Shown here: piece by piece, positions 31,597 through 36,027 of the stretch
Numbering within the stretch: position 1 is the first letter of the stretch
Layout of the letters: every line of letters starts with the position of its first letter
Origin: Flavobacteriaceae bacterium
GTDB taxonomy: Bacteria > Bacteroidota > Bacteroidia > Flavobacteriales > Flavobacteriaceae
Reading direction: 5' to 3'
DNA length: 55,200 nt
Assembly: GCA_029246125.1 (NCBI GenBank)
Contig: JAQWNZ010000035.1
Location: 1 to 55,200 of the forward strand
Position numbers and translations under genes: made by a program
Notes under the pieces: model-generated
The model's input: the letters and a program-made list of their open reading frames with translations, nothing else
What the model was told of the DNA's origin: nothing
Database searches by the model: none

Positions 31597-34500
31597 GTGA
31601 GGTTTAAGGAATACAAACAAATGGATTTGCCTAACATTGCTAAAGAAATTCTAAAACAATGGAAGGATGAGGACACTTTTTCTAAAACCTTAAATAATAG
31701 AAAGGGAAGTCCCCCATTTATTTTTTACGAAGGGCCTCCATCTGCAAATGGAACGCCTGGTATTCATCATGTAATGGCAAGAGCTATTAAAGATATTTTT
31801 TGTCGTTATAAAACTCAGAAAGGTTATCTAGTAGATCGAAAGGCAGGATGGGATACACACGGACTTCCTGTAGAACTTGGTGTAGAAAAAGAACTTGGAA
31901 TTACTAAAGATGATATTGGAAAAAGTATTAGCATAGAAGATTATAATTCCTCTTGTAAAAAAGCTGTAATGCGTTATACAGATGTTTGGAATTCCCTTAC
32001 AATGCGAATAGGCTATTGGGTAGATATGAAAGATCCATATGTGACTTATAAATCCAAATACATGGAATCCGTTTGGTGGTTAATCAAGCAAATTCATGAA
32101 AAAGGTTTCCTTTACAAGGGTTATACAATTCAGCCCTATTCTCCTATGGCTGGAACTGGGCTAAGCTCACACGAACTAAATCAGCCTGGAGCCTACCAAA
32201 ACATTACAGATACAACAGTAACTGCTCAGTTCAAAGCTATAAATTCAAGTTTGCCAAAATCTCTAAAGGGAGAAATACCCCTTTATTTTTTAGCATGGAC
32301 CACAACCCCGTGGACTTTGCCATCAAATACCGCACTTACAGTAGGAAAGAAAATTGATTATGCAATTGTAAATACTTTCAATCAATATACTCACAAATCT
32401 GTAAGAGTAATTCTTGCTAAAGACCTTGTTGTAAAACAGTTTGGAAAAAAATATATTGAGCAGGCTACTTTAAAAGAATTTAAGGCTAGTGATAAAAAAA
32501 TACCATATAAGATAGAGAGTGTCATTAAAGGAAGTAAACTAGTCAATATTCGGTATGAACAACTTTGGGCAGAAGCGCCTGTTCCGTTTACAAACCCAGA
32601 AAATGCTTTCAGAGTAATTGAAGGTGATTTTGTAACAACTGAAGATGGAACAGGTATTGTTCATACTGCACCAACTTTTGGAGCAGACGATGCTAAAGTT
32701 GCTAAAGAAGCATCACCCGAAGTTCCACCTCTTTTAGTAAAAGATGAAAATGAGAATCTAGTTCCATTAGTTGATCTAAGTGGTCGCTTCAGGAAAGAAG
32801 TTGGTCGCTTAGGTGGTCAGTTTGTAAAAAACGAATACTATCCTAAAGGACAAATCCCTGATCGCTCAACAGATATAGACATTGCGATACAGCTAAAAGA
32901 AGAAAACAAGGCATTTAAAGTTGAAAAATATGTTCACTCATATCCAAATTGCTGGAGAACCGATAAACCCATTCTTTATTATCCGTTAGATTCTTGGTTT
33001 ATTAAGGTAAAAGATATTAAAGATGAAATGGTTTCCCTGAACAAGGAAATTAACTGGAAACCTAAATCTACTGGCGAAGGTCGTTTTGGTAATTGGATTG
33101 CTAATGCAAATGATTGGAATCTTTCCCGATCCCGATTTTGGGGAATCCCCCTTCCCATTTGGCGAACAGAAGATGACAAAGAAACTCGAGTAATCGGGTC
33201 CATTGAAGAGCTAAAAAAAGCAATTGAAAAATCTATTTCAAAAGGGCTAATGGATAATAATCCTTTAGATAATTTTATCCAAAATGATTTTTCAGAATCT
33301 AACTATGATAAGGTGGATCTCCACAAACAAAGTGTTGACAAAGTTATACTGAGCGGTAGCAATGGTGAACCAATGTATAGAGAATCTGACCTGATTGATG
33401 TTTGGTTTGACTCTGGCTCCATGCCTTATGCGCAATGGCATTATCCCTTTGAAAATAAAGAATTAATAGATCAGGGAAAATGTTTCCCTGCAGATTACAT
33501 AGCAGAAGGAGTAGACCAAACCCGTGGTTGGTTTTATACTCTTCATGCCATAGCTACTCTTGTCTTTAAAGAAAAGGCTTATAAAAATGTTATATCAAAT
33601 GGTTTAGTATTAGATAAAAATGGACAAAAAATGTCCAAAAGATTGGGTAACGCAGTGGATCCATTTGAAACATTAGATCAGTATGGACCTGATGCCACAC
33701 GTTGGTATATGATTTCAAATGCAAACCCTTGGGACAATCTAAAATTTGATTTAGAAGGAATTGCCGAAGTACGGCGTAAATTTTTTGGAACACTTTACAA
33801 TACGTATTCTTTTTTTACCTTATATGCTAATATTGATAGGTTTAATCCTGAAAAAGAAGTAACCATTCCTTACAATCAAAGGCCTGAGCTTGATCAATGG
33901 ATTCTTTCAGAGTTAAACTCACTCATTAAAGGGGTAGATGCTGCCTATGACGATTACGAACCTACAAAGGCTAGTAGAGCGATTTCAGATTTTGTTCAAG
34001 AAAAACTTAGTAACTGGTACGTACGACTTTGTAGAAGACGTTTTTGGAAAGGAGACTATGGTCAAGATAAAATTTCAGCCTTCCAAACTCTACACGAATG
34101 CTTAATAACTGTTTGTAAGCTTGCTGCACCTGTAGCCCCATTTTATATGGACCATCTATATCAAGATCTCACTTTAAATACAGAATCCGTTCATCTAACT
34201 GATTTCCCGAAAATAAAAAAAGAGTTAATTCAAACAGAATTGGAACAACAAATTAACACTGCAAGAGCCATAACTTCACTTGCATTATCACTGCGTAAAA
34301 AGGAACAAATAAAAGTTCGTCAACCTTTACACAAAATCTTAGTCCCAGTAAAAAATAATGCTGAACGAAAGCGAATTGAAAAAATTAGTCTACAACTCAA
34401 AAGAGAAATCAATGTAAAGGAGGTTGAACTTTTAGATGAAGCTAATGATCTTTTGGTCAAAGAAATTAAACCAAACTTTAAGGCTCTTGGGCCCCGTTTT

Positions 34501-34983
34501 GGAAAAGATATTAAATCAGTAACCCAAGCAATAAAAGAACTAAGTAAAGAGCAAATCCAACAACTTGAATACGATAAAAATATTACTCTTTATATCGATG
34601 GCAAGAAAATTCAAATAAAAGAAACCGATGTGGAAGTTTTATTCAAAGATATCGAAGGCTGGCAAGTTGCACAAAGTGATGGTTTGACTGTAGCCTTAGA
34701 CATGACATTGACCCCAGAGCTTATAAAAGAGGGGTTGGCAAGAGAGCTAGTGAATAGAATTCAAAACCACAGAAAAGAAAGTGGTTTGGAGGTTACTGAT
34801 AAAATTGAAGTTTTTTTAAAGGAAAATGCTAAGTTAGAAGCTGCGGTTTCAGAAAATAAAAGTTATATATTGTCCGAAACTTTAGCAACTAGCTTAATTT
34901 TCAAAGCAAACGTTGAGCAGGGGTTTCCTCTGGAATTTGATACAATTAAATCAATCATTCAAATCAAAAAACTAAAGTCATGA
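31597..34983 (+). CDS. ileS: Isoleucyl-tRNA synthetase, type 2-like, with GIHH in place of HIGH
   Basis: 1128 residues from a GTG at 31597. Charges tRNA-Ile. PSANGTPGIHHVMARAIKD (residues 49-67) is the first class I signature; in the common enzyme the four residues after NGxx read HIGH, here G55-I56-H57-H58 (31759-31770). The second signature is KMSKRLG (33630 on). The editing domain lies between (WTTTPWTLPSNTA, EDGTGIVHTAPTFGADD). The length and long C-terminal part fit the type 2 (eukaryote-like) IleRS, which is naturally mupirocin-resistant, and the swapped GxHH is reported for a hyper-resistant subset. It is 138 bp after the TonB receptor gene and overlaps the DksA-like gene by 4 bp. Confidence 0.97.
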   Translation: MRFKEYKQMDLPNIAKEILKQWKDEDTFSKTLNNRKGSPPFIFYEGPPSANGTPGIHHVMARAIKDIFCRYKTQKGYLVDRKAGWDTHGLPVELGVEKELGITKDDIGKSISIEDYNSSCKKAVMRYTDVWNSLTMRIGYWVDMKDPYVTYKSKYMESVWWLIKQIHEKGFLYKGYTIQPYSPMAGTGLSSHELNQPGAYQNITDTTVTAQFKAINSSLPKSLKGEIPLYFLAWTTTPWTLPSNTALTVGKKIDYAIVNTFNQYTHKSVRVILAKDLVVKQFGKKYIEQATLKEFKASDKKIPYKIESVIKGSKLVNIRYEQLWAEAPVPFTNPENAFRVIEGDFVTTEDGTGIVHTAPTFGADDAKVAKEASPEVPPLLVKDENENLVPLVDLSGRFRKEVGRLGGQFVKNEYYPKGQIPDRSTDIDIAIQLKEENKAFKVEKYVHSYPNCWRTDKPILYYPLDSWFIKVKDIKDEMVSLNKEINWKPKSTGEGRFGNWIANANDWNLSRSRFWGIPLPIWRTEDDKETRVIGSIEELKKAIEKSISKGLMDNNPLDNFIQNDFSESNYDKVDLHKQSVDKVILSGSNGEPMYRESDLIDVWFDSGSMPYAQWHYPFENKELIDQGKCFPADYIAEGVDQTRGWFYTLHAIATLVFKEKAYKNVISNGLVLDKNGQKMSKRLGNAVDPFETLDQYGPDATRWYMISNANPWDNLKFDLEGIAEVRRKFFGTLYNTYSFFTLYANIDRFNPEKEVTIPYNQRPELDQWILSELNSLIKGVDAAYDDYEPTKASRAISDFVQEKLSNWYVRLCRRRFWKGDYGQDKISAFQTLHECLITVCKLAAPVAPFYMDHLYQDLTLNTESVHLTDFPKIKKELIQTELEQQINTARAITSLALSLRKKEQIKVRQPLHKILVPVKNNAERKRIEKISLQLKREINVKEVELLDEANDLLVKEIKPNFKALGPRFGKDIKSVTQAIKELSKEQIQQLEYDKNITLYIDGKKIQIKETDVEVLFKDIEGWQVAQSDGLTVALDMTLTPELIKEGLARELVNRIQNHRKESGLEVTDKIEVFLKENAKLEAAVSENKSYILSETLATSLIFKANVEQGFPLEFDTIKSIIQIKKLKS

Positions 34984-35357
34984 ATAATAAAACAAGATAT
35001 GCCGACAAGGAATTAAAAGAATTTAGAAAACTAATAGAAGAAAAAATTGATAAAGCCAAAGCAGATCTTGAGCTTTTGAGAAGTGCATACATGAATAATG
35101 GAAATAATGGTACAGAGGATACTGCGCCTACTTTCAAGGCATTTGAAGAAGGTTCAGAAACAATGTCCAAGGAAGCAAACACTCAATTGGCGATTCGTCA
35201 AGAAAAATTTATAAGGGATTTAAAAAATGCTCTCGTACGTATTGAAAATAAAACATACGGAATATGTCGTGTAACAGGAAAACTAATCAATAAAAAACGA
35301 TTGTATTTAGTACCTCACGCAACTCTGAGTATAGAGGCAAAAAATATGCAGAAATAG
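34980..35357 (+). CDS. DksA/TraR-family protein with degenerate zinc finger
   Basis: 125 residues. A charged coiled-coil N-terminal half (KELKEFRKLIEEKIDKAKAD) leads to the finger region YGICRVTGKLINKKRLYLVP. Family C4 proteins have four cysteines here; only one (Cys at 35265) remains, so zinc binding is unlikely. The RL..VP.A.... part of the motif is kept. DksA-like proteins bind in the RNA polymerase secondary channel. The start overlaps the ileS stop by 4 bp (ATGA), and lspA follows; ileS-dksA-lspA is a conserved order in this group. Confidence 0.9.
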   Translation: MNNKTRYADKELKEFRKLIEEKIDKAKADLELLRSAYMNNGNNGTEDTAPTFKAFEEGSETMSKEANTQLAIRQEKFIRDLKNALVRIENKTYGICRVTGKLINKKRLYLVPHATLSIEAKNMQK

Positions 35358-35370
35358 CAGCTCTTAAGTT

Positions 35371-36027
35371 CTGAAAACAAAAAAAACATATTTTACCTCT
35401 GCGATAGCAGTTACTATTATAACCCTCATATTATTTATAGATCAGGGGAGTAAGTTTTACATTAAACTAAATTATCCACTTTCATCATATGGTGTCCCTG
35501 CCATATTAGATTGGGGTTTCTTTAAATTATTATTTGTCGAAAACAGTGGAATGGCGATGGGAACCAAGCTCAATGATTTTATACCTTTTATTTCAGAAAA
35601 AACAGCAAAGCTCATTCTCACTTTATTTCGAATAGTTGCTATATCTGGACTTGGTTATTGGTTATGGAGCTCCGTCCAAAAGCAAACCCATATTTTTCTT
35701 AAGTGGGCTTTGGTATTAATTTTTGCTGGTGCACTAGGAAATATTATTGATTCTGTATTTTATGGAGTAATTTTTTCAGACAGTCATGATACTGTTGCTA
35801 GTCTTTTTCCAGAAAAAGGTTATGCGCCTCTTTTCTATGGCCATGTAGTTGACATGCTTCAGTTTCCTTTAGTTGAATGGGATTGGCCTAATTGGATGCC
35901 ATGGATAGGGGGTGAACACTTCCTTTTTTTTCAATACATTTTCAATATTGCTGATACTTCTATTAGCACAGGGGTAGGTATTTTGATCTTTTTTAACAAA
36001 ACAATATTTACAAAAAATAATGATTAA
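35371..36027 (+). CDS. lspA: Lipoprotein signal peptidase (signal peptidase II), apparent CTG start
   Basis: 218 residues if read from CTG at 35371 (KTKKTYFTSAIAVTIITLI as the first membrane helix). The frame is closed upstream at 35365, and no ATG, GTG or TTG occurs before the internal ATG at 35551. Starting there would delete helix 1 and LFIDQGSKFYI. Catalytic aspartates are in GNIIDSVFYG and FNIADTSIS. A long insert (SHDTVASLFPEKGYAPLFYG) is typical of Bacteroidota LspA. It removes signal peptides from lipoproteins at the inner membrane, relevant to the many lipoproteins here. It starts 14 bases after the DksA-like stop; the 3' end overlaps the cyclo-ligase gene by 4 bp. Confidence 0.9.
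   Translation: MKTKKTYFTSAIAVTIITLILFIDQGSKFYIKLNYPLSSYGVPAILDWGFFKLLFVENSGMAMGTKLNDFIPFISEKTAKLILTLFRIVAISGLGYWLWSSVQKQTHIFLKWALVLIFAGALGNIIDSVFYGVIFSDSHDTVASLFPEKGYAPLFYGHVVDMLQFPLVEWDWPNWMPWIGGEHFLFFQYIFNIADTSISTGVGILIFFNKTIFTKNND

Follow-up and report, generated by a model that had tools for sequence, protein, structure and literature searches.

A type 2 isoleucyl-tRNA synthetase with a swapped GXHH signature motif in a flavobacterium and in related Bacteroidota

The isoleucyl-tRNA synthetase (IleRS) encoded in a 55,200-nucleotide stretch of a Flavobacteriaceae genome (GenBank assembly GCA_029246125.1, contig JAQWNZ010000035.1, positions 1 to 55,200; hereafter the window) carries GIHH at the site where class I synthetases carry HIGH. 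We conclude with high confidence that this enzyme is the ordinary housekeeping IleRS of the cell, that it is of type 2 with a GXHH signature inherited from an ancestor of the phylum, and that it should be hyper-resistant to mupirocin by a published mechanism. The motif is real and remarkable, and its explanation has already been published: the G/AXHH motif was described in 2023 by Brkic et al. (PMC10485003), who linked it to mupirocin hyper-resistance.

The ileS gene, its signature site and enzyme type

The ileS gene occupies positions 31597 to 34983 on the forward strand, an open reading frame of 1,128 amino acids with a GTG start; in nearly all of the full-length family relatives listed, the match begins at query residue 1, 2 or 3, which fits this start. 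In frame within it, positions 31759–31770 (forward strand) read GGT ATT CAT CAT and encode G55-I56-H57-H58 (residue context PSANGTPGIHHVMARAIKD), that is, the Gly or Ala, hydrophobic residue, His and His that define G/AXHH at the signature site. In HMMER alignments, these residues stand opposite HVGH in two wild-type IleRS2, that of P. megaterium (8c8v) and that of T. thermophilus (1ile), and opposite the GVHH of 8c8w, an engineered P. megaterium IleRS2 mutant; codons and alignments together bear out the initial annotation, which had placed GIHH where class I synthetases carry HIGH. The editing-domain stretch HTAPTFGADD and the KMSKR loop are both found, and the enzyme looks intact. An Rfam scan of the whole window at the gathering threshold returned no match, and hence no RNA element such as a T-box upstream of ileS.

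The protein scored 976.4 bits against the NCBIfam profile TIGR00392 (ileS; cut-off 621.4), and its Pfam domains above cut-off include tRNA-synt_1, Anticodon_1 and DUF5915, among others. In a PDB sequence search, the P. megaterium IleRS2 chains (8c8u, 8c8v, 8c8w and 8c9d) matched it at 782–795 bits, compared with 312–320 bits for P. megaterium IleRS1 (8c9e and 8c9f) and 1ffy, which we take to be S. aureus IleRS1, and 211 bits for two more IleRS chains of 920–921 residues. Score, alignment and tree thus concur in assigning the window protein to IleRS type 2, as had been claimed for it, and the phylogeny, which could have refuted this, places it inside IleRS2, away from type 1, with E. coli IleRS1 far out. 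PMC4861432 gives two features of type 2, the HYPFE motif and a residue other than Tyr at the position of E. coli Tyr-59, and the window protein has the former. HYPFE is a weak, non-strict marker of type 2, because it is kept in two of four outgroup IleRS2 and 61 of 71 phylum loci and absent from the other two and ten, respectively.

At the position of E. coli Tyr-59, a residue that controls tRNA-dependent pre-transfer editing (PMC4861432), the window protein has Ser (residue 49, codon TCT, positions 31741–31743, forward strand), giving GPPSANG against the GPPYANG of E. coli. The lack of Tyr lies on the type 2 side, and Ser is a variant relative to the Phe or Thr that PMC4861432 (2016) gives for eukaryotic and eukaryote-like enzymes. 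Ser recurred in all 79 near-relative loci, all 29 family loci and all 14 further loci labelled as the same family, order or class, whereas all 57 loci from the phylum's other classes (52 genomes) had Thr there; seven loci with split genes (five Ser, two Thr) matched their class labels. Judged from these loci, Ser versus Thr appears to be a neat class marker.

Two genes follow ileS on the same strand. The end of ileS is overlapped by a gene for a DksA/TraR-like protein (positions 34980–35357, forward strand), whose matches to TIGR02890 (54.2 bits, cut-off 134.4) and PF01258 (24.4 bits, cut-off 24.9) both lie below cut-off; in 76 of the 80 near-relative loci (L035–L114), a same-strand dksA/traR-like match comes after ileS. 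The next gene, lspA (lipoprotein signal peptidase, positions 35368–36027, forward strand), has a same-strand match downstream of ileS in 72 of those 80 loci, and its part from 35551 scored 77.3 bits against PF01252, above cut-off. The lspA frame is open from 35368, yet contains no ATG, GTG or TTG before 35551. Because the match to the profile NF011369 begins at position 50 of 213, the N-terminal part of lspA lies upstream of 35551, and a rarer start codon, such as the CTG at 35371, is possible.

Distribution, gene tree and copy number

The survey of relatives for HxGH versus GxHH, as the initial annotation had advised, returned only G[IV]HH, in 182 of 182 relatives with a readable site, and no HXGH in the phylum among them. 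Near relatives, taken as the best 80 of at least 589 confirmed stretches (mostly Flavobacteriaceae genera or bins, with a few 'uncultured Bacteroidetes'), account for 79 of these (78 GIHH and one GVHH; locus L039 starts downstream of the site), and a further set of 104 phylum genomes for 103 (77 GIHH and 26 GVHH; genome G234 had no ileS match); the two sets may share species. The 104-genome set consists of genomes with loci retrieved in ileS scans plus 20 regions chosen for family spread, and holds 77 of the 295 other genomes of the TIGR00392 scan, most of which stand outside the motif count; 75 of those 77, the ones beyond the family-genome scan, span 33 of the 50 family labels in the TIGR00392 scan. 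The same residues (with Ile or Val second) in 79 of 80 near relatives and 103 of 104 phylum genomes rule out chance or sequencing error as the source of GIHH. Within the part of the phylum read, the swap is the norm, and finding it in one marine genome does not point to recent antibiotic pressure. Outside the phylum, four IleRS2 from plasmid-collection records were mixed at the site, with GIHH in Acetoanaerobium, GVHH in Nonomuraea, HIGH in Paenibacillus and HAGH in Sutcliffiella.

Gene history was examined in a tree of 53 proteins selected among the loci (model LG+C20+F+G4, quick search, SH-aLRT support; locus L171, with a readable motif, gave no frame under the KMSK filter and was left out of both the tree and the Tyr-59 count). 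E. coli IleRS1 fell far out, and 50 GxHH proteins were split from two HXGH IleRS2 with a support of 92. The window protein grouped with the uncultured Flavobacteria loci L035, L037 and L036 inside family f1, which nested successively with family f2 of the same order, then within the class (24 proteins, support 100) and then within the phylum (48 proteins, support 96), so that the tree follows the kinship labels, the expectation under vertical inheritance. Since every phylum genome with a readable site has GxHH and the gene tree tracks kinship, the motif is an old inherited trait that long predates this species, and not its own marine adaptation. With a thin outgroup (four non-Bacteroidota IleRS2 plus E. 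coli IleRS1) and some long branches, the tree bears on the phylum and not on the number of origins of GxHH outside it; at least two origins have been inferred (PMC10485003). Just outside the Bacteroidota enzymes, each on a long branch and with a support of 92, are the GIHH-bearing IleRS2 of Acetoanaerobium noterae (Clostridia; L188) and the GVHH-bearing IleRS2 of Nonomuraea.

Copy number was assessed in the source assembly, the family and the phylum. The source assembly (1,183,298 bases in 61 contigs, 56.46% complete) holds a single ileS; four other matches (at most 55 bits and 33% identity) were taken as related synthetases such as ValRS. One match per genome at E ≤ 1e-50 was found in 60 of 60 family genomes, the source genome included (in five of the 60, a few candidates were left unscored), and 295 of 296 phylum genomes (requested completeness of at least 90%; source genome included) had a TIGR00392 match. 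With E. coli IleRS1 as the query and two candidates scored per genome, no type-1-like IleRS was found in the 296 phylum genomes: 211 had a match at E ≤ 1e-60, the best of them at 330 bits, with identities of at most 32% among the approximately 150 phylum matches listed. The scale for this query came from plasmid records (30 rows of 203 records). Among the rows listed, those taken as type 1 span at least 98% of the query and scored 503 bits at 34.9% identity (Mycoplasmopsis), 676 bits at 40.7% (Sinorhizobium), 793 bits at 44.0% (Listeria) or higher (others), and type 2 rows reached at most 371 bits and 31.1% identity; a partial Acinetobacter row (39.7% over 42% of the query, 259 bits) belongs to neither group. 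The window ileS also lies near the housekeeping genes lspA, recO and uvrC, and we consider it very likely that its product is the housekeeping IleRS of the cell. The earlier claim that it is the main IleRS is, to that degree, upheld by the one copy in the source assembly, the single matches across the family and the lack of type-1-like matches in the 296 genomes scanned.

Seven phylum genomes with extra or weak ileS matches (G116, G162, G247, G312, G333, G345 and G325) were re-inspected. In all but G333, the two pieces complement each other along the query, overlapping by at most 42 residues, and lie on the same contig or, for G345, on two contigs; we read each pair as one split gene. In G333 (97% complete, 3% contamination), two partial ileS matches, each at the end of a contig, share approximately 170 residues, which may represent an assembly overlap or two copies or strains. 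G234, rated 100% complete, has no TIGR00392 match and its best match to the window protein is weak (106 bits, 30%), probably reflecting an assembly gap. In G116, G162, G247 and G312 (L192–L194, L196, L200–L202 and L204), the ileS match is split within one contig and the open frames are 1177 to 1269 amino acids long, which suggests insertions or divergent stretches within the protein; a TAG was reported within a matched ileS stretch of G116. Separately, Bacteroidota-type ileS occurs on records filed as plasmids (H1–H9) from Riemerella, Bacteroides, Parabacteroides, Phocaeicola and Prevotella.

Mupirocin resistance and the origin of the motif

In the published mechanism, the third-position His has its side chain where HXGH enzymes have that of their catalytic first His, and modelling of the drug-bound state shows it clashing with mupirocin (PMC10485003). 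Natural GXHH enzymes have mupirocin Ki values in the millimolar range (PMC10485003), as for the S. griseus IleRS2 (10 mM; PMC4861432) and for DrIleRS2 of D. radiodurans, with ALHH, whose Ki of 6.6 mM fell to 8.1 µM after the change to HVGH. Conversely, introducing GVHH raised the Ki from 1.08 to 460 µM in PmIleRS2 (P. megaterium) and from 0.20 to 35 µM in TtIleRS2 (T. thermophilus) (Table 1 of PMC10485003), with a catalytic cost to these HXGH enzymes (PMC10485003). This enzymology agrees with what the initial annotation had stated, that a GXHH subset of IleRS type 2 is hyper-resistant.

By the same mechanism, the third-position His of the window enzyme would stand in catalytically for the first His of HXGH and would sterically exclude mupirocin. 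Because this residue has both roles in the published mechanism, the window enzyme should be hyper-resistant: a very high Ki, as predicted from motif and scaffold, is likely, as is intrinsic resistance of the cell, a property that hinges on drug uptake too. A literature search, mostly of sources short of full text, returned no mupirocin Ki or MIC for the window protein, a close relative or any of the Bacteroidota. Published mentions include the use of mupirocin in a ppGpp assay in P. gingivalis (PMC6994654), a restatement of mupirocin-resistant IleRS as known (PMC9927545) and a genome paper whose resistance table lists, under mupirocin, the IleRS of one Flavobacteriaceae member (PMC10835994). 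If enzyme tests agree, mupirocin resistance would be expected widely in the Bacteroidota, with consequences for whether genome and metagenome surveys should count ileS as a resistance gene.

Three other readings were weighed. That the GIHH enzyme is an accessory copy, with housekeeping done by a type 1 IleRS hidden in the missing part of the assembly, we find scarcely credible: each of the 60 family genomes has a single match, the 296 phylum genomes gave no type-1-like match and the GIHH gene sits near lspA, recO and uvrC, against which stand the co-occurrence of both types in P. megaterium (PMC10485003) and a source assembly that is just 56.46% complete. In the proposed check for a second ileS, the assembly shows one, and at this completeness a second copy could escape. 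The initial annotation had also suggested that GIHH may reflect exposure to marine mupirocin producers. In the corresponding reading, marine producers of mupirocin or thiomarinol drove either a recent adaptation of the lineage or the horizontal acquisition of a resistance gene. Exposure to an IleRS inhibitor at sea is possible, because marine Pseudoalteromonas produce thiomarinol, a pseudomonic acid hybrid acting on IleRS (PMC3069032), and antibiotic selection has been proposed for GXHH in general (PMC10485003). This origin is nevertheless very unlikely and was not borne out: the motif is present in all 182 readable relatives (from two sets that may share species), the gene tree follows kinship labels, and ileS has dksA-like and lspA genes as its downstream neighbours in most of the 80 near-relative loci. 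Both local adaptation and horizontal acquisition were rejected on the motif in all genomes read and on the tree.

A third reading, compatible with the preferred one of an inherited, hyper-resistant housekeeping enzyme, is that GxHH persists mainly for reasons other than mupirocin, such as history or fit with another active-site trait, with hyper-resistance as a by-product. The genomes read carry GxHH under 33 family labels with no HxGH among them, and in the loci read the class Bacteroidia is set apart by Ser at the Tyr-59 position; weighing the other way are the catalytic cost of GVHH in HXGH enzymes and the consulted sections of PMC10485003, in which no benefit besides resistance is named. 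On balance, we regard this reading as possible rather than probable. With similar reserve, we tentatively suggest that the phylum fixed the inverted signature in its only IleRS, without reversion among the genes examined, and is intrinsically hyper-resistant, and that present-day mupirocin may explain the persistence of the motif less well than history, or co-adaptation with the altered residue of pre-transfer editing, does.

Comparison with known systems

The window enzyme is most like the GXHH IleRS2 of S. griseus and D. radiodurans (PMC10485003), with which it shares the type 2 scaffold, the swap of motif positions 1 and 3 and, very probably, the housekeeping role; unlike those tested enzymes, it comes from the Bacteroidota and has Ser at the Tyr-59 position. 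The main text of PMC10485003 contains neither 'Bacteroid' nor 'Flavobacteri'. The closest solved structures by sequence are the P. megaterium (8c8u, 8c8v, 8c8w and 8c9d) and T. thermophilus (1ile) IleRS2, which align over the catalytic domain and whose wild types have HVGH, in contrast to GIHH. MupA and MupB, the acquired mupirocin-resistant IleRS of staphylococci, are type 2 relatives of the window enzyme; its scores against them (760.3 and 772.4 bits) are far below the NCBIfam exception cut-offs of 1900, and its identity as either was rejected. MupA is plasmid-borne in the staphylococcal records among the matches listed, whereas the window ileS lies among housekeeping genes. Finally, the type 1 IleRS of E. 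coli, S. aureus and P. megaterium (IleRS1) have the same function as the window enzyme, but carry HXGH and, in E. coli, Tyr-59, where the window enzyme has GIHH and Ser.
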